Shown here in pieces: positions 4,581 to 32,459 of a DNA stretch of 32,459 nt. The translations under genes were made by a program, and so were the position numbers. Position 1 is the stretch's first letter. Each line of letters opens with the position of its first letter. The stretch spans positions 1-32,459 of the IMG/VR virus record IMGVR_UViG_3300007276_000167, one strand, 5' to 3'. Under the pieces are notes generated by a model. It made no database searches, was not told the DNA's origin, and was given only the letters and a program-made list of their open reading frames with translations. The stretch is from a virus.

Positions 4581-6916
4581 GGACGGAGTTCGCGCAATAT
4601 CACTATTCACTTTATGAATTAATCCTGCCTTATTGCACTGTCTGTACTCCGGTCGATGGGGTGAATGGTACGTGGCACACACCTATAACGTGTACGCAGT
4701 CGAGCGATTCTACTTATTCATTGTGGTTTACATCTCAGGACGCACCCAATGTAAGCCAGCCATCAGCATCAATCACAGGCAAATCGATACTTAATAGTAA
4801 GATATTTAAGTGCGTTAGTTCTTCGAGTGAATCAACGCCACAGATTAAGCCTGGTAAGGGTATGTCGAGCCGTTCAACGATTACGTTATCAATGACTGAT
4901 TTCGATAGTGACCCAGGCCCGATTAATTTCAGTGATAACGGTTCATTCTTTGGGAAGCTATTAGCGCGTAATATTTTAGATGGTAAGCAACTGAAGGTTT
5001 ATAACTACGCTATTGCTGATGGGGTTAGCTATGAAATATCCACAGCTATCTATTTTATTGAATCATCTCAACTGTCTGGCAATCAATTTAAGATTACTGG
5101 TAAAGATGCGCTCAAGGATATTGAGAAATTCAACGAACAATTCCCAACACCATCAACTATTACATTAACGGCTGATATTACAGAATCACAATTAACTATT
5201 CCTGTAACAGAGACTACAGGGCTTGCTGCGATTGATAGGGTGATAATCGGTGAAGAGATAATCAGGATTGATAGTTTAACGGCTAACTCGATTACTTGTA
5301 CGGCTAGAGGTGCGGATCAGATAGGCACAGGCGGTATATTATTATATAGAACCACAGCAGAGGCTCATGACTCAGGCGACACTGTACAGCTCTGCTACGT
5401 GATGAACGCTTACCCTTTGGCTAATATGCTAACTACTATTTACAATCATGTTGGCCTGTCTGCTTATGTTGATTTTACACAATGGAATAATGAGATAACC
5501 GAGTGGAATTCATCGGCCTTGCTTTACGGTATCTTTACTGAGCCAGCCCCTGCTATAGATTTGATTAATCAAATGCTCGAAGTGTATATGGTTGATATGT
5601 GGCTAAATCAATCAACTCAGAAAGTAGTTGTTTCAGCAGTTAGTGCTTGGAAGGAATCAATAAGAACACTATCTGAAGTCAACGACATTCAAAACTTAAA
5701 GGTAAAGACACAGCCTAACCAACGCTATTCAAGGGCATACATTACCCACAGAAAGCCCTACCAAGCACTATCAGATGACAAGAACAATTATAAAAAGTAT
5801 ACGGTATACACTGACACAGCATCAGAGTCTTCTGATTTGTACGGCGATGTTTCAATGTATGAATTCGACCCTTGCCGGTTTATATCTGACTCGTCATCAA
5901 CAATATTAGCGAGTCGGTTTGTTCAGCGGTTCAATGAGCCACCAAAAGAAATCTCATTCAATATTGAAGAGCGTAAATTATCCGGCACTTCGCTTGGTGA
6001 TGTTGTCGACATTATATCGAGAGACAGCCAACTCCCTGATGGCACAGAATACGGCGGCAAGATAACGGCACAGATTACACAGCTAAAACCTGTTGTTAAT
6101 GGTATAGGCCGATACTACGCAGCTAAGGCACTTAGTTATATTCCTTTAATCGATACAGGCGGCGGCCCATTAGTTATATTTATATCTGGCACAGTTTTTG
6201 ATTTAAACCTATATGACAGGGCAGGCGCTCCGGCTTCAGCTGTTGATGTCACCTTTGTATTGCAGGGCGCTACTATAGGCTCTAGCTCTTCACAATACGC
6301 AATGCGGGCGGGTAACTTTGCGTCAGGGTCAACGGTTAAGATCATAGCCACAGCAGGTACTAAGTGGGCGGCTAAGGGCGGACTAGGGGGAACAGGCGGC
6401 ACAGGGGTTCCTGGTGATTCATCGGGTCAAGTAGGTAGTGATTCCTACCAATCAGACAGCATAACTACGCAAATCTATCTTAATTATGGAGTTGTCGATA
6501 CCTATACAACTGATGGTGAGCTATATGCAGCAGGAGGCGGCGGCGGTTGTGTTATTCAAGACGGTACAGGTACGGGGAGAACATTACTTAACGGTGGCGG
6601 CGGATCGGGCATTCCTGGTGGACTGGGTGGCGTTACACCTCCAAGCGCAACATATACACCAACCAACGGGTCAAACGGTAGCTTTAGTGCTGGTGGACTG
6701 GGTGGAGTTTTTGGTGGGTCTATTGCTGCTGGTGACGGTGGGTTTTCTTTAGATGGTGTTGCAGGTAATGACGGCGGAGTGCCTATTTATGTAACTTATC
6801 CTGGCGGCTCTGCTGGCGGAGCATTTAAAGGCACAGGAATAACAGTATATAATTTGGCGGCAAGTGCGTCCAAGCTCCGAGATGGCAACTCAGACGTTTA
6901 TACTTTAGTGACTTAG
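4577..6916 (+). CDS. Tail tip/hub protein with glycine-rich C-terminal adhesin-like domain
   Basis: A 779-residue protein that ends the tail block. Roughly residues 1-520 look like a tail hub: mixed strands, a GRYYAAKALSYIPL segment near 512-525 and a long region of repeated strand motifs. From about residue 585 the sequence becomes glycine rich, with runs such as GGLGGTGGTG, AAGGGGG and GGGGSGIPGGLGG up to about 765. Such glycine-rich stretches form polyglycine-II helix bundles in gp38-type receptor-binding adhesins of phages such as S16, and occur at the end of several central fibre proteins. The likely role is receptor recognition at the tail tip. The downstream stop region overlaps the end of a minus-strand lipoprotein gene by 12 bases. 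Confidence 0.75.
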   Translation: MRTEFAQYHYSLYELILPYCTVCTPVDGVNGTWHTPITCTQSSDSTYSLWFTSQDAPNVSQPSASITGKSILNSKIFKCVSSSSESTPQIKPGKGMSSRSTITLSMTDFDSDPGPINFSDNGSFFGKLLARNILDGKQLKVYNYAIADGVSYEISTAIYFIESSQLSGNQFKITGKDALKDIEKFNEQFPTPSTITLTADITESQLTIPVTETTGLAAIDRVIIGEEIIRIDSLTANSITCTARGADQIGTGGILLYRTTAEAHDSGDTVQLCYVMNAYPLANMLTTIYNHVGLSAYVDFTQWNNEITEWNSSALLYGIFTEPAPAIDLINQMLEVYMVDMWLNQSTQKVVVSAVSAWKESIRTLSEVNDIQNLKVKTQPNQRYSRAYITHRKPYQALSDDKNNYKKYTVYTDTASESSDLYGDVSMYEFDPCRFISDSSSTILASRFVQRFNEPPKEISFNIEERKLSGTSLGDVVDIISRDSQLPDGTEYGGKITAQITQLKPVVNGIGRYYAAKALSYIPLIDTGGGPLVIFISGTVFDLNLYDRAGAPASAVDVTFVLQGATIGSSSSQYAMRAGNFASGSTVKIIATAGTKWAAKGGLGGTGGTGVPGDSSGQVGSDSYQSDSITTQIYLNYGVVDTYTTDGELYAAGGGGGCVIQDGTGTGRTLLNGGGGSGIPGGLGGVTPPSATYTPTNGSNGSFSAGGLGGVFGGSIAAGDGGFSLDGVAGNDGGVPIYVTYPGGSAGGAFKGTGITVYNLAASASKLRDGNSDVYTLVT

Positions 6917-7495
6917 AGCACTAGTGACGAGTTGAGCAGTAAGATTATGGCCTTCATCATCGTATTCAGTGCCGACTAATGGAGCGCTTTCAATAATTGG
7001 GCCTTCGCAAACATCAGTAATATAATCGCGAACTTGCTGAATAATGGGTTGTAAGTCAGGGTTTTCAGTCAAAGGAGGTAGCAGGCAGTATATCTCACGA
7101 TCAAGATAAACTCCGTTAGCCATTATCGTTGCGTAGTTTGATTTAAAACCCGCTAGTGACTGATTGCCAGATAGTATGTTTTTAGCCTCTGTGTGACCTA
7201 TCGCCATAATCAAGCTGCCGTTAACCGTTGCCTCGATAAAGTGGTAATAATCATTAATATTATTAAAGTGGCCATCAATGCAGCGGCGCTTATTATATAC
7301 ACCAAAGCCGCTAATGCGATCAGGCCAAGGGGTAATTAAGCCGGTTGATGTATTACACAGAGCGTCACCTATAACCACAATTCGTTTAGTTGAATCTGGC
7401 TCAGGCTCTGCGGGTGGTGTTGATGTATTATCTGACCCTCCGCTTTTACATGCAGTTAGCAGGGCTATTAATGCTATAGATAATAAAATCTTCAT
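6905..7495 (-). CDS. SGNH-hydrolase-like lipoprotein with an altered nucleophile motif
   Basis: A 196-residue predicted lipoprotein. The signal peptide MKILLSIALIALLTAC has a clear lipobox (LTAC, Cys16), followed by a Pro/Glu/Ser-rich linker. The mature domain has an SGNH-like frame: strand IVVIGDALCN (block I, residues 40-48), and near the end YDDEGHNLTAQL, matching the block V D-x-x-H (Asp180, His183). The block I serine, normally GDS, is alanine here (GCT), and block III reads GHTEAKN instead of GxND, so activity is doubtful. Start chosen at 7495 because AAAGGA lies 8-13 bases upstream; a longer frame adds 12 residues before the signal peptide. It is convergent with the tail tip gene. Possible jobs: surface receptor masking (superinfection exclusion) or a decayed esterase. 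Confidence 0.72.
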   Translation of the reverse strand: MKILLSIALIALLTACKSGGSDNTSTPPAEPEPDSTKRIVVIGDALCNTSTGLITPWPDRISGFGVYNKRRCIDGHFNNINDYYHFIEATVNGSLIMAIGHTEAKNILSGNQSLAGFKSNYATIMANGVYLDREIYCLLPPLTENPDLQPIIQQVRDYITDVCEGPIIESAPLVGTEYDDEGHNLTAQLVTSALSH

Positions 7496-7537
7496 GAGTA
7501 TGTTTCCTTTAGTCAATAGGTAGTCAGACAAGGCGGC

Positions 7538-7557
7538 AGCAGTGACTAACTGCTTTT
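7538..7557 (+). terminator. Short hairpin plus T4, candidate terminator
   Basis: AGCAGT (7538-7543), five-base loop, ACTGCT (7549-7554), followed by TTT. It could end rightward transcription coming from the tail block through the antisense lipoprotein gene. The stem is only six pairs and the T run short, so this is weak. Confidence 0.4.
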
Positions 7558-7558
7558 C

Positions 7559-7588
7559 GGTTGTACAACCTAGCCGCGAGGCTATAAT
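7559..7588 (+). promoter_or_regulatory. Candidate promoter with nested palindromes
   Basis: A perfect 12-bp palindrome GGTTGTACAACC (7559-7570) is followed by TAGCC-GCGA-GGCTA (7571-7584), a stem with a GNRA loop, which runs into a perfect -10 box TATAAT (7583-7588). A weak -35 (TTGTAC, 7561-7566) lies 16 bases upstream, inside the palindrome, so a repressor bound there would block the promoter. It would serve the small rightward cassette 7616-8041. Confidence 0.5.
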
Positions 7589-7615
7589 ACAGTAAATATC
7601 AAATAGGTGCCAAAC

Positions 7616-7704
7616 ATGCCAAGCATAACGATTACAGATGTTATTTTGGGCATTCCCTTATTACTATGAATTTATACATTGTTAATCCTTTGGTGGTTGT
7701 ATGA
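7616..7704 (+). CDS. Two tiny coupled reading frames (leader peptides?)
   Basis: A 17-codon frame (7616-7669) with a fair ribosome site (AGGTG at 7605-7609) ends in an ATGA overlap with a 12-codon frame (7666-7704), which ends in another ATGA overlap with the lipoprotein start at 7701. Both peptides are hydrophobic (MPSITITDVILGIPLLL and MNLYIVNPLVVV). They may only carry ribosomes to the lipoprotein gene, or be remnants of a membrane protein broken by frameshifts. Confidence 0.3.
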
Positions 7705-7877
7705 ATAAGATTTGCTTAATAATATTGCTTATACCTGGCTGTTGCACCATCACTGGCAACAATAACAGCTGTGATTTTACTGACTCAAGCAGCGAGGCTA
7801 TCGACTTAGGTGATGAGGCTAGAGAACCATTCCTGATTGACACTAACCAGATTGGCGAAGAGGTTAAGTCGGTATGA
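7701..7877 (+). CDS. Small lipoprotein
   Basis: 58 residues with a short hydrophobic signal sequence MNKICLIILLIPGC; the Cys at 14 is the likely lipidation site (IPGC lipobox), followed by a polar acidic tail with no recognisable domain. GGTGG at 7691-7695 may serve as ribosome site, and the stop overlaps the next start as ATGA. It could be an outer-membrane spanin (Rz1-like) or, given its separate promoter and opposite direction to the lysis block, a superinfection-exclusion lipoprotein of the Llp/Cor kind. The sequence alone does not decide. Confidence 0.6.
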   Translation: MNKICLIILLIPGCCTITGNNNSCDFTDSSSEAIDLGDEAREPFLIDTNQIGEEVKSV

Positions 7878-8041
7878 ATGATGAGACCGAGGAAGCCGTT
7901 GACCGCTTTGAAGCAATGGAAGCTGACCTGCAAGACTTGATTGCCTTTAAGCGTAGGGCTAACAAGGCTTTCGTTTGGCTTGGTGGGATATTGGGTACGC
8001 CAATGGTCATATTAATCTGGGAATTTATCACGGATGTTTGA
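7874..8041 (+). CDS. Small membrane protein with charged N-terminus and C-terminal anchor
   Basis: 55 residues: an acidic helical N-terminal half (MNDETEEAVDRFEAMEADLQ), a basic KRRANK stretch at 26-31 and a hydrophobic segment at 33-51 that ends in FITDV. This layout, short cytoplasmic coiled coil and one C-terminal membrane span, is like XhlA-type holin accessory proteins, though too short to be sure. Coupled to the lipoprotein by ATGA. Its last 30 bases overlap the end of the minus-strand HNH-like gene, so the two transcripts converge. Confidence 0.6.
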   Translation: MNDETEEAVDRFEAMEADLQDLIAFKRRANKAFVWLGGILGTPMVILIWEFITDV

Positions 8042-8410
8042 TAGGAACTCTGTAAACTCACCCCACAGCTCAAGCAGTATAGAAAATTCAAAGCCATTGC
8101 GGGCTATGTCTAAGTAGATGTAACTACACATAAAGATAATTATTAAAATAGTAAGAAATCTTATCATCCAATACAAACTCCACAGATAGATTGATTTAAC
8201 GCCCCACTTTGTCTTTGTTCCCTGCTTTAAATTACAGGGCTGACATTGATGCTTTAAGTTGAAACGCCACAAAGCAAAGAGAGGGTACTTGTGAGCCGAT
8301 AAAATATGCCCTGACTGAATGTCTGCTGTACTACCGCAATCCACACAGCGTAGGGTTTTGAAGTCCTTTGATAGCTTTACCCAAGAGGCTGACTGGTGGA
8401 AGTTACCCAC
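8012..8410 (-). CDS. HNH-like zinc protein with C-terminal membrane segment
   Basis: 132 residues. The N-terminal half has the zinc-bound HNH frame: Cys22-x-x-Cys25, Gly34-His35, then Cys56-x-x-Cys59-Asn60 (CVDCGS, GHIL, CQPCN). From about residue 75 to 100 it is strongly hydrophobic (IRFLTILIIIFMCSYIYL), which is not part of usual HNH nucleases. The start is GTG at 8410, overlapping the upstream gene by eight bases. It is the last gene of the leftward operon. HNH proteins often help terminase, but the membrane anchor suggests another role, such as acting on incoming DNA at the membrane. Both parts are clear; the function is inferred. Confidence 0.65.
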   Translation of the reverse strand: MGNFHQSASWVKLSKDFKTLRCVDCGSTADIQSGHILSAHKYPLFALWRFNLKHQCQPCNLKQGTKTKWGVKSIYLWSLYWMIRFLTILIIIFMCSYIYLDIARNGFEFSILLELWGEFTEFLSNIRDKFPD

Positions 8411-9341: not shown

Positions 9342-9751
9342 AGCAAATACTCTGCCGGATCAAAGAACTTACCGTCCTTATCCTTAACCTCAAAGTGGAT
9401 ATGCTCAGTAATACCGTGATACTTTTTCCCAAGCTCTTGAGAGATGCCGATTGATTGACCTGATTGAACCATATCGCCCACAGCTACAGCAGGAACAACA
9501 TAGAAGTATCGAGCCTTAAAGCCTAACGGGTCTTGAATCTCGACATAGGTAAAGTCAGGCTTGCCGTCATTATCTTCATCGTCATCATAGGGGTAGCCAA
9601 TCTTAGTGACTCTGCCGTACTTCTCAGCGCAGATACTAGAACCAGGATAGCAGGCAAAGTCGATGCCCTTGTGCTTACGTGATCCTCTGTTGGCCCCGTA
9701 ATGCCCCGCTCCCCATGTATCTATAGTTCTTTGTGGTGGTTTAGTTAACAT
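9338..9751 (-). CDS. M23 family metallopeptidase endolysin
   Basis: 137 residues from the ATG at 9751, which has AAGGAG 7-12 bases upstream (a longer frame adds eight residues without a better site). The lysostaphin-type zinc site is visible: H-x-x-x-D as HKGID (His27, Asp31) and H-x-H as HIHFEV (His117, His119). The strand pattern PGSSICAEKYGRVTKIG and VGDMVQSGQSIGISQ is the usual M23 beta-fold. An acidic loop DDDEDNDGKPD (56-66) resembles a calcium-binding loop. There is no signal peptide, so it needs the holin to reach the wall. It probably cuts peptidoglycan cross-bridges. The first bases overlap the end of csrA by 11. Confidence 0.88.
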   Translation of the reverse strand: MLTKPPQRTIDTWGAGHYGANRGSRKHKGIDFACYPGSSICAEKYGRVTKIGYPYDDDEDNDGKPDFTYVEIQDPLGFKARYFYVVPAVAVGDMVQSGQSIGISQELGKKYHGITEHIHFEVKDKDGKFFDPAEYLL

Positions 9752-9932
9752 TGCCTTTCTCCTTAATTCTATCATTTCTATTCTTGAGTGAGTCTCTCAG
9801 GATCTCAACATCATCAGGTGCCTCTATCGCTAGTCTGGCACTCCTTCTATCTGTAAAAACTAACGATATTTTAATATCCTCACCTATCCAGATTGGGCCG
9901 TCTGTGTCTTTGATTGTTAATACTAAAGCCAT
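9741..9932 (-). CDS. csrA: CsrA-like RNA-binding regulator
   Basis: 63 residues that line up with CsrA over nearly the full length: start LVLTIKD for LILTRRV, IWIGEDIKISLV for LMIGDEVTVTVL, RLAIEAPDDVEILRDSL for RIGVNAPKEVSVHREEI. The key C-terminal Arg (R44 in E. coli) is kept in ILRDS, while the N-terminal R6-R7 pair is Ile-Lys. CsrA dimers bind GGA in RNA leaders and block or stabilise messages. Its own start region, GGGAG and AGGATGG, contains two GGA elements at the ribosome site, which suggests self-control. It overlaps the endolysin gene by 11 bases. A phage-borne copy may redirect host carbon or biofilm control or time lysis. Confidence 0.85.
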   Translation of the reverse strand: MALVLTIKDTDGPIWIGEDIKISLVFTDRRSARLAIEAPDDVEILRDSLKNRNDRIKEKGNVN

Positions 9933-10547: not shown

Positions 10548-10910
10548 TTATTTCCCCTTGAATTGAGTTAAGTAGTAAAACGATACCGCAGCAACAAATG
10601 CCCATCCTAGCTTCCATGCGTCCATTACAGACACAAGGTTGGTCACCTTATCCATTGAATCAAACGCTACATAGATCACAGCTACAACGAACGAGAAACC
10701 ATGCAAGGCGATAATAAACCACAGTAAATCCCTACGGCTGATTGACGTGCCTTGTGACTTGGTAGCCTCTAATAGTTTAAGTAAGTGGTCTGCTTTTTCC
10801 TGACTGGTAAAGTCTGCATTGTTCCACATGCCCATACCAGATTTAGCAACATCACCAACAACGTCGATAGCTTTATCAATTGAACTTTTACCGAAAAAAC
10901 TCATATTCAT
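10548..10910 (-). CDS. Holin (GTA-type 3TM-like)
   Basis: 120 residues. After a soluble N-terminal part with KADHLLKLLEATKSQ, two hydrophobic segments are clear (LLWFIIALHGFSFVVAVIYVAF near 63-84 and WKLGWAFVAAVSFYYLTQF near 99-117). The layout resembles the family of holins of gene-transfer agents and related phages, in which a charged N-terminal helix precedes the membrane parts. It would open the inner membrane for the M23 endolysin. Start ATG at 10910 with AAGGAG eight bases upstream, overlapping the previous stop as ATGA. Confidence 0.65.
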   Translation of the reverse strand: MNMSFFGKSSIDKAIDVVGDVAKSGMGMWNNADFTSQEKADHLLKLLEATKSQGTSISRRDLLWFIIALHGFSFVVAVIYVAFDSMDKVTNLVSVMDAWKLGWAFVAAVSFYYLTQFKGK

Positions 10911-11068
10911 AACTCCTTAACAGTTCGTCTTAATACGCCTAACCCAAACTCAAGCGCTTCTATTTGTATCTGTAACTCATTCAACATCACTTCATAATGC
11001 GAGATAGTCTCAAGCAATGTTTTCTTATCTTGTGCTAACCCAAGTTCAAGGACGTTACCCATTTCCAT
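10907..11068 (-). CDS. Small coiled-coil protein of unknown function
   Basis: 53 residues, MEMGNVLELGLAQDKKTLLE at the start, then a leucine/isoleucine heptad pattern (HYEVMLNELQIQIEALEFGL). ATG at 11068 lies within the end of the preceding gene (34-base overlap) and the stop overlaps the holin start as ATGA. The overlaps on both sides and the good holin ribosome site within its end support a real gene. It could be an antiholin or holin partner by position only. Confidence 0.55.
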   Translation of the reverse strand: MEMGNVLELGLAQDKKTLLETISHYEVMLNELQIQIEALEFGLGVLRRTVKEL

Positions 11069-11343
11069 AATCCTATTAATTTATCGTGAAACCCTGCAAA
11101 CTTACAAGCCGGTGCTTTGCGGTAGTAATCCTTGCCATCTTTAAACAGCCAATCACTAGAGGCACTCCAGGCATTCAAACTATTATTAAACGTTTTCTGT
11201 GTCGGCTTATCGAATGTTAGAAACTCATCACCATCAACCGAATTGCAGAACATTTTATACAGTACGCAAACTCTATAGCGCTGCTCAACATTCATATTAG
11301 AATTGAGATGATAGAGCTGGACGGTGTGAGGGATGGGCTTCAT
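11035..11343 (-). CDS. Hypothetical protein (102 residues)
   Basis: Rich in aromatic residues: Tyr-x-x-Cys and two Trp-rich stretches (LNAWSASSDWLFKDGKDYYR and LIGLWKWV). No signal peptide or membrane span was seen. It begins with TAATG overlap to the previous gene, and its end overlaps the small coiled-coil gene. I do not recognise the family; its place between NinG and the holin is a hinge between recombination and lysis genes. Confidence 0.5.
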   Translation of the reverse strand: MKPIPHTVQLYHLNSNMNVEQRYRVCVLYKMFCNSVDGDEFLTFDKPTQKTFNNSLNAWSASSDWLFKDGKDYYRKAPACKFAGFHDKLIGLWKWVTSLNLG

Positions 11344-11609
11344 TACGCCACCACATCAGTAAGAATTGGAATATTAATACCGTAAATAGCCGCTACACTA
11401 TCAGGCACTCTTGCAATAATAGCCTTCGTATTTTTAATCAGTGCTGAGTAAATCTTATCGATATAATCTGATAGCTTTAAATTAGGCGCTACTAAAATAA
11501 TCGAATAACCGTTTCCAATATCTCTATACATGACGCCACACTTGGGAAAGCTGCTCATTAGTTTGTGAACGTCTTTAGCCTTAACGTATCTATTAAAATT
11601 ATCTAACAT
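11343..11609 (-). CDS. Hypothetical protein (88 residues)
   Basis: Start chosen at ATG 11609, preceded by GAGGGA at the right distance; a longer frame up to 11741 has no site and overlaps NinG. The sequence mixes helices and strands (SIILVAPNLKLSDYIDKIYS, then AIIARVPDSVAAIYGINIP). No known motif. Overlaps the NinG stop by seven bases, so it may be translated together with NinG. Confidence 0.55.
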   Translation of the reverse strand: MLDNFNRYVKAKDVHKLMSSFPKCGVMYRDIGNGYSIILVAPNLKLSDYIDKIYSALIKNTKAIIARVPDSVAAIYGINIPILTDVVA

Positions 11610-12172
11610 TGTTGATCCCTCAGTAGTCGTTTTGTTTTTCTGGTGTACCATTTCTGGATTGTTTTTAAGTTGGCTATTGTGTACCGCTTGGCGGGGTGGC
11701 TTCTTTCCATTTCGGCAACAGCAGCTTCCCCAATCTTGCAAAGTAAATTAATTCTATAATTAGATATATTCCCAGAAAGATGATTGTTGCACGCAGAACA
11801 TTGCTTATGGCAGTTGGTTGGTATGAATCTGAGTTCAGGGTTAGCACCAACAGATCGGTAATGACCGGCGTGATATTGGCCAGTGTGAAACCTGCCACAA
11901 CTGATACAAGGCAAAGCCATATCACGTAAGCGAATATAAGAATTAAATATGCGCTGAGTCTTTTTTGTTTGAAATGATTTATCATTGTCTTTCAAATCCT
12001 TCTTAGCTTTAGTGTGGGCCTGCTTCTCTTCCTTAACCTTTTCAGCCTTCGCCTTTTTCAAGCCTTTACTACCTGCACAATCGATAGAGCAGAAAGTACC
12101 GCGATTGATTTTTATCTTATCCGATTGAGGGAAGTATTCACGGCAACCAGTGCAGCGGAATTTGCTGTTCAT
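11603..12172 (-). CDS. ninG: NinG/Rap-like recombination protein
   Basis: 189 residues from the ATG at 12172, which overlaps the upstream Lar-like gene as ATGA. It matches lambda NinG (Rap): an N-terminal zinc finger CTGCREYF with C-x-x-C and a second CSIDC pair, a lysine-rich linker, then RLRDMALPCISCGR, GQYHAGHY, LRFIPTNCHKQCSACN and LSGNISNYRINL in the order seen in the family. Rap is an endonuclease that cuts branched recombination intermediates, and works together with a single-strand annealing protein, which this phage has (13968-14612). Length is close to lambda NinG (about 204). Confidence 0.9.
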   Translation of the reverse strand: MNSKFRCTGCREYFPQSDKIKINRGTFCSIDCAGSKGLKKAKAEKVKEEKQAHTKAKKDLKDNDKSFQTKKTQRIFNSYIRLRDMALPCISCGRFHTGQYHAGHYRSVGANPELRFIPTNCHKQCSACNNHLSGNISNYRINLLCKIGEAAVAEMERSHPAKRYTIANLKTIQKWYTRKTKRLLRDQQC

Positions 12173-32164: not shown

Positions 32165-32459
32165 TGGGCGGCCTATCAGTAGCTGCTAAGGTAGTTCGCG
32201 GATTAGCTAAAGCCAATGTAAAAGTGGGCGAGAATGACTCGCCTATTCTTACACTTGTCAAAGTCACTGTGACAGGTGGTGGTAATAACCCTTTCGACCC
32301 ACCTGTGACAACTACTGAAAACATCGTATTAGTTAACGCTATATTCAAGAGCATTGATAAGTCATCGATTGATAATGACCTGATTAAAGATGGTGACAGG
32401 GAGCTGGTCTGTGATGGTGCTACTGAGATTAAACAGGGCGAGGTTATAGAGTCGTCAAC
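32164..32459 (+). CDS. Head-closure/connector protein, N-terminal part (continues at base 2)
   Basis: ATG at 32164 overlapping the adaptor stop. Begins MGGLSVAAKVVRGLAKANVK, followed by VGENDSPILTLVKVTVTGGG and beta-rich sequence. The reading frame is open to the window end and continues from base 2 to the stop at 209-211, total 127 residues. Between adaptor and gp10-like protein it should be the head-closure (stopper) protein. See the entry at 2-211. Confidence 0.7.
   Translation, partial: MGGLSVAAKVVRGLAKANVKVGENDSPILTLVKVTVTGGGNNPFDPPVTTTENIVLVNAIFKSIDKSSIDNDLIKDGDRELVCDGATEIKQGEVIESS
32337..32459. repeat. Terminal direct repeat, right copy
   Basis: Identical to 1-123. It reflects the overlap of a circular assembly (see left copy). 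Anyone counting genes should remove one copy. Confidence 0.93.

Follow-up and report, generated by a model that had tools for sequence, protein, structure and literature searches.

The locus described here lies in a virus genome record (IMGVR_UViG_3300007276_000167) of 32,459 bases, the whole of which was analyzed and is referred to as the window. An exact repeat of 123 bases is present at both ends of the record (1-123 and 32337-32459), and therefore the record is a complete circular assembly with 32,336 unique bases. The genome is that of a tailed phage, with PHROG matches for terminase, portal, capsid, scaffold, tail and tape-measure genes. Its large terminase is 65-73% identical to those of Vibrio, Aeromonas, Pseudoalteromonas and Alteromonas phages, and its tail fiber is 43% identical to that of Vibrio phage 1.144.O and about 60% identical to those of the IMG/VR contigs L105 and L106, the closest relatives of the phage. 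The rightward tail genes stop at position 6916, and on the other side lies a leftward arm encoding Sak, NinG, a CsrA-like protein, an HTH_39 protein and an M23 endolysin; the locus under study is the meeting point of the two. A gene for a NinG/HNH-like domain with a C-terminal membrane helix (the HNH-TM gene; 8012-8410 on the minus strand of the window, 10201-10596 in L105, 1838-2284 in L002) is kept in relatives at the convergence point. The M23 endolysin has a close relative (71%) at 1468-1881 of L002, a phage with a different tail module, and the endolysin gene is overlapped by the gene of the CsrA-family protein (9741-9932, minus strand; PF02599, 1.3e-10). Near the corresponding slot L105 encodes, at 10901-11431 on the minus strand, an outer-membrane beta-barrel (OmpX/Lom-like by eye), which suggests that the region collects envelope genes.

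The protein-coding features at the meeting point are the following.

6905-7495, minus strand: gene of a 196-aa lipoprotein, led by the RNA described below (coding score; motifs by eye)
7616-7704, plus strand: two tiny ATGA-coupled frames of 17 and 12 codons, not established as genes
7701-7877, plus strand: 58-aa protein resembling a small lipoprotein, with a lipobox (LIPGC) recognized by eye; orphan (coding score)
7874-8041, plus strand: 55-aa protein, charged in its N-terminal part and with a single membrane helix at the C terminus; orphan (coding score, hydropathy)

The codon-usage score of the leftward gene 6905-7495 was reached by 1 of 110 out-of-frame controls. Its product carries SGNH-hydrolase-like motifs, recognized by eye, with GDA in place of GDS, i.e., an Ala where the nucleophile Ser is expected; with no Pfam match and no GDS serine, it does not qualify as an SGNH hydrolase. 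The protein has no relative among families, phages, viral contigs or PDB, and its single-sequence fold prediction (pLDDT 44) is too poor to use.

On the plus strand, a preliminary description of the DNA had pointed to a chain of ATGA-coupled frames ending with a lipoprotein and a membrane protein. Four frames with three such overlaps are indeed present (7616-7669, 7666-7704, 7701-7877 and 7874-8041), and the last two encode a lipobox-bearing protein followed by a one-helix protein. These two frames are coding-like and look like real genes, since none of 110 out-of-frame controls reached the coding score of either; the two tiny frames have scores that 10 and 1 of the 110 controls attain. For the overlapping frames of the minus strand the numbers are 52 and 70 of 110, and these do not look coding. 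Homologs of the 58-aa protein were found in none of the viral contigs, phages, genome contigs or 30 related records searched, nor those of the 55-aa protein in viral contigs, phages or the 30 related records, and the cassette proteins have no match of weight to any family of PADLOC, Pfam, NCBIfam or PHROG. PADLOC gave a partial match of 11 bits for the 55-aa protein and none for the 58-aa lipoprotein. These searches yielded no evidence of a role in exclusion or defense, nor do they speak against one.

In L105 and L106, two different small genes lie between the tail fiber gene (60% identical) and the HNH-TM gene (50%). The overlap between the last of these two and the convergent HNH-TM gene is like the one seen in the window between the 3' end of the 55-aa gene and the gene 8012-8410. 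In other relatives the position following the tail fiber is occupied by lysis genes or genes for C-anchored proteins. The cassette was originally presented as a separate unit, a moron expressed independently of the phage program. What stands of this is that it has promoter-like DNA of its own and replaces a different two-gene block of L105 and L106, and because it is such a separate, replaceable unit with two real-looking genes, "moron-like" is a fair term. We regard it as a separate pair of small membrane-associated genes, placed back to back with the RNA unit in a variable slot after the tail fiber.

Ahead of the chain of frames, the preliminary description listed a terminator-like hairpin (AGCAGTGACTAACTGCT followed by TTTT, 7538-7557), a perfect 12-bp palindrome (GGTTGTACAACC, 7559-7570) and a GNRA-loop stem, TAGCC-GCGA-GGCTA, merging into TATAAT (7571-7588). 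All of them are there; taken singly, each is at chance level. Compared with 60 dinucleotide shuffles, used for the dyads and the ATGA chains, the window holds 5 perfect 12-bp palindromes against 10.35 expected and 1 GNRA 5-bp hairpin against 1.97, and ATGA-coupled chains of at least four frames occur somewhere in 20 of the 60 shuffled genomes. The scanned region has 3 terminator-like sites where 2.2 are expected, and the plus-strand fold is unremarkable (z -0.30). The stretch with the dyads (7503-7584) exceeds chance only through its match to DNA of other phages and through a covarying fold of the minus strand.

When the DNA of 6905-8110 was compared with 50,697 phage records in a sensitive blastn-type search, the only part that matched was a stretch at about 7505-7577, found in 38 records, of which 37 are Vibrio phages and 1 is a Pseudomonas phage. 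E values are as low as 1e-5 (over 39 and over 111 bases; 5e-5 over 69 bases), no annotated gene lies under the match in 37 of the 38 rows (19 of 20 in the first listing), and the matching stretch coincides with the hairpin and the palindrome. Nine aligned copies share, with small variations, a common block AGTCA..AGG.AGTC and CAGTGAC.A.CTGC.TTTCGG...CCTA.CCG. A pattern scan of IMG/VR gave 6 further contigs with the element; the genome contigs scanned have no copy of one exact 21-letter pattern, a result that concerns that pattern only.

The default Rfam scan of the window was empty. Scanned alone, the stretch in the window matches the int-alpA family RF02996 on the minus strand with 26.8 bits (E 6.5e-4), and the copy of phage VpaJT_1 matches it with 25.9 bits (E 8.8e-4) on the equivalent strand. 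In a search of 36 records with RF02996, the window copy had an E value of 2.6e-5 and copies were found in 14 records; the gathering cut-off of 35.8 bits was reached in none of the 36, the best score being 35.0 (contig G016). The three-way junction with its conserved joining letters, CUAGG and CGAAA(A)GC, is as in RF02996. The int-alpA RNA takes its name from a position between integrase and alpA genes, and this neighborhood is absent here: the neighbors in the window are two lipoprotein genes and a membrane protein gene. Judged by its sequence, the element is a sub-threshold relative of RF02996, a variant of a catalogued RNA family that serves in this phage to lead a lipoprotein gene. We also built a covariance model (R1) with the window copy among its sequences; it locates a single copy in the window, copies in 15 of the 36 records and none in the records of the nearest relatives, L105 and L106.

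The fold itself is a three-way junction in which helix P1 closes the hairpins P2 and P3, and it is well supported by covariation. In a sequence-only alignment of 14 copies, 96.0% of the cells of P1, P2 and P3 are paired (84.4% after shuffling), 6 pairs are changed on both sides (2.3 shuffled) and the covariation score is 0.288 (0.098 shuffled), with none of 500 shuffles as high on any of five measures. Partners slid along the same alignment pair in 25-54% of cells, at most 53.7%. An alignment of 20 copies made by model R1 has 96.6% of cells paired and 9 pairs changed on both sides, an alignment that is fitted to the model. The case for the RNA is built on comparison and not on stability, because the leader in the window folds with an ordinary energy (z -0.51). 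U.G wobbles in P2 and P3 would favor the plus strand as the RNA strand, but they are outweighed by the Rfam match, the pairing of loop L3 with sites in the leader and the gene association. The resulting anatomy, all on the minus strand, is listed below.

7608-7613: -35-like hexamer TTGGCA (promoter scan, 10 of 12 together with the -10)
7496-7591: int-alpA-like leader RNA, extending from the -10 as far as the last base ahead of the start codon (blastn, RF02996, model R1, covariation)
7584-7589: -10-like hexamer TATTAT (promoter scan; constant place across elements)
7573-7577: 5' strand of P1, GCGGC, pairing with 7533-7537 (RF02996, covariation)
7559-7570: P2 hairpin, GGTTGTACAACC, the palindrome of the preliminary description (RF02996)
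7539-7553: P3 hairpin, GCAG-UUAGUCA-CUGC, its terminator-like hairpin (RF02996, covariation)
7543-7549: loop L3 of P3, UUAGUCA
7533-7537: 3' strand of P1, GCCGC (RF02996, covariation)
7521-7526: site 1, UGACUA, complementary to L3 over 6 bp (L3-leader pairing test)
7509-7515: site 2, UGACUAA, able to pair with all of L3 over 7 bp (L3-leader pairing test)
7505-7510: ribosome-binding site AAAGGA, with site 2 running into it
7495: start codon of the led gene

The dyads taken for the terminator, operator and promoter stem of a rightward unit thus turn out to include helices P3 and P2 of a leftward RNA, and the evidence from conservation, from the Rfam match and from the genes that follow favors the minus strand throughout. 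The preliminary description picked a real conserved feature, for reasons that fail one by one and on the wrong strand.

For the comparison with other phages, 23 elements were counted; this number does not include L126, identical in sequence to L123, L014, which duplicates L013, or a further weak hit of 15.7 bits in GJ44. The -10-like hexamer ends 2-9 nt before P1 in all 21 elements scored and matches on average 4.57 of 6 positions, against 3.20 in shuffled sequences (21 of the 23 elements used); therefore the transcript would start at P1, which puts the inferred start at the 5' base of P1, at about 7577. The minus-strand promoter TTGGCA-18-TATTAT fits in 10 of 12 positions, better than the plus-strand TTGTAC-16-TATAAT, the latter read from the sequence. 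Promoter-like sites in the region number 7, where 5.8 are expected by chance, and the leftward -35 is weak by itself.

A gene follows in the sense of the RNA in all 21 readable elements, i.e., all but the one in 1.027.O, where the record ends and the next gene was not read, and that in L132, where no gene was found. The orientation to a start codon is constant. The position of 7496-7591 as a 5' leader of the lipoprotein gene 6905-7495 is well supported. The led gene is nuclease-like in 15 of the 21. Eight of these (AL, L022, L135, L136, L137, PB15, PfAn1 and XX1924) form one cluster with HNH_3 proteins, three (K373, 1.144.O and L119) belong to the cluster of the K373 HNH endonuclease, three (PS17B.1, VpaJT_1 and 1.024.O) are of the T5orf172 type, and one, at the second copy in the contig of L134, was assigned by its HNH motif. 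Three of these labels were confirmed by Pfam (HNH_3 for PfAn1 and for XX1924, T5orf172 for PS17B.1), whereas the K373 and L136 proteins gave no Pfam match; the other nuclease labels thus rest on record annotation, clustering or by-eye reading. The remaining six elements lead genes for TerL (1.046.O), a helicase (L133), Prim-Pol (L134), KilA-N (GJ44), phrog_12600 (L013), whose neighbors are found mostly in unrelated phages, and the lipoprotein of the window. A portable module would look like this, with an unrelated set of genes behind one leader. The contig G020 has two copies of the RNA, at 7512-7608 and 12051-12147 (L142, L134), one preceding an HNH-like gene and the other the Prim-Pol gene. 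In L132 (64-161) the RNA copy has a shortened leader and a strong hairpin in place of the gene; it may represent a defunct module or else a small RNA that acts freely.

Loop L3 and the leader downstream of it are matched to each other, as shown statistically. In distant relatives both leader sites change together with L3: the loop UCAAUC is found with GAUUGA, UUCGUC with UGACGA and GACGAGG, UCGUUA with UAACGA twice, and CGUAGA with UCUACG. When alignment columns were taken by machine from 20 aligned elements, one per distinct loop (9 loops), the mean score of a loop with its own leader was 22.7 against 17.1 with swapped leaders, and 7 of 100,000 random assignments of loops to leaders were as good; 1.144.O, PB15 and L119 stand outside this set, as model R1 does not find them. 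With loops chosen by eye in 20 of the 23 elements (L132, PB15 and L119 left out), which form 8 classes, none of the 40,320 assignments attains the score apart from the true one. Some of the 20 elements pair weakly (L137, p 0.62; 1.027.O, 0.23; XX1924, 0.12; L134, 0.10). Site 2 ends 5-17 nt before the start codon in most elements.

These observations can be combined into a mechanism, which we consider probable for the window: the minus-strand stretch 7496-7591 would be an int-alpA-like leader RNA acting as a two-state switch on the translation of the lipoprotein gene 6905-7495 behind it. Pairing of L3 with site 2 would hide the ribosome-binding site, pairing with site 1, the earlier of the two to be made, would leave it free, and the two sites would compete for the loop. 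More speculatively, the trigger in this phage could be the CsrA-like protein encoded at 9741-9932 or the ribosome itself. As an idea only, a CsrA-family protein could bind GGA motifs such as that in the ribosome-binding site of the leader. The promoter, the RNA and the gene may together form a portable unit, a moron or selfish-gene module, carrying a lipoprotein gene here and mostly genes of homing-type nucleases elsewhere.

The same RNA may be imagined to act in trans, as a small RNA whose loop L3 is an anti-Shine-Dalgarno seed and whose place before a gene is a by-product of its own promoter. Rfam types RF02996 as "Gene; sRNA", the element has a -10-like box of its own, the consensus int-alpA loop CCuUua could, in our reading, pair with a UAAGGG-like end in the model, and the L132 copy has a hairpin behind it instead of a gene. 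We find this unlikely, however: conservation reaches as far as the start codon and L3 co-varies with each of its two sites, and a purely trans-acting RNA would need neither. In a further reading it is the DNA that is conserved, as a site for homing or as a cos or packaging site, because a TerL, TerS or HNH/T5orf172 gene adjoins it in the 8 named phage records that were examined first. The window has its TerL gene at a distance of 14 kb, other copies precede helicase, Prim-Pol, KilA-N or phrog_12600 genes, the helices co-vary as pairs, the orientation to the start codon is constant and one virus contig, G020, has two copies, all of which makes a DNA element highly improbable; its cos-site version was dropped in view of the copies before the helicase and Prim-Pol genes and of the Rfam match.

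The original interpretation, in which the dyads are the terminator, operator and promoter of a rightward moron for exclusion or defense, can point to the TATAAT at 7583-7588 of the plus strand and to the divergent layout. The exclusion lipoproteins Cor and Llp, which are small and encoded near tail genes, would be in line with it. Against it, the conservation, the family match and the gene association are on the minus strand and no defense family among the PADLOC models is represented, and we hold it to be quite unlikely. For the cassette proteins themselves, position and shape make a late envelope or lysis accessory the most likely role. The more specific proposal, an outer-membrane spanin-like lipoprotein with an XhlA- or holin-like tail-anchored protein, is a tentative one. 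The architecture is the same and relatives have lysis genes or genes for single-helix C-anchored proteins in the slot after the tail fiber, but the profiles do not single out the cassette proteins, neither of which has a PHROG match. As an o-spanin, the 58-aa protein aligns well by eye with the spanin of phage 1N2-2; BLASTP gave nothing, and with a profile of 9 members its score was equaled by 27 of 500 shuffles, so as an assignment by sequence this was rejected. PHROG 1275 (Rz-like o-spanin) is absent, and for an i-spanin partner there is neither a PHROG 1026 match nor such a frame in the cassette. The 55-aa protein has the short length and the single C-terminal membrane helix of XhlA, by hydropathy only; 19 of 500 shuffles reach its score, the XhlA/hemolysin profiles (PHROG 937 and 1193) do not match it, and by sequence it was likewise rejected as XhlA-like.

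Returning to the translational switch, its extension beyond the window is more speculative: int-alpA-like RNAs may perhaps form a widespread class of portable switches, each with its own promoter, that control the translation of selfish genes and morons in phages, and in which a loop with two sites toggles access to the ribosome-binding site. If true, any gene captured behind the module, be it a homing nuclease, KilA-N, helicase or lipoprotein gene, would share stage- or signal-dependent control. A literature search found no role for the int-alpA RNA and, being thin on subscription journals, no paper describing the association of the RNA leader with a gene. The analysis ties a sub-family of int-alpA to a fixed architecture (own -10, three-way junction, loop with two partners, ribosome-binding site and start codon) and to genes that move between phages. 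An orphan RNA thereby becomes a hypothesis that can be tested with a single reporter and compensatory mutations, and the leader offers a way to find selfish or moron genes of phages.

Compared with known systems, the cassette proteins are similar to Rz-like o-spanins and XhlA in size, in the lipobox or C-terminal anchor and in the place after the tail genes that such genes have in relatives, but they have no significant sequence relation to them. The RNA unit resembles those of homing endonuclease genes of the HNH_3/AP2, NUMOD-like HNH and T5orf172 types in that most relatives of the RNA lead such a gene; it differs in that the window RNA leads a lipoprotein gene, for which PHROG, Pfam and other family searches gave no nuclease match. 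The closest likeness is to RF02996, with which the element shares the three-way junction, a CUAG that follows the 5' strand of P1, CGAAAAGC joining P2 to P3, its own orientation and a loop that could pair with a 3' end of AAGG-like sequence. Unlike the catalogued family, the copies described here score below its cut-off in every record searched, have other sequences in the P3 loop and the downstream sites, and precede nuclease and other phage genes instead of lying between integrase and alpA.
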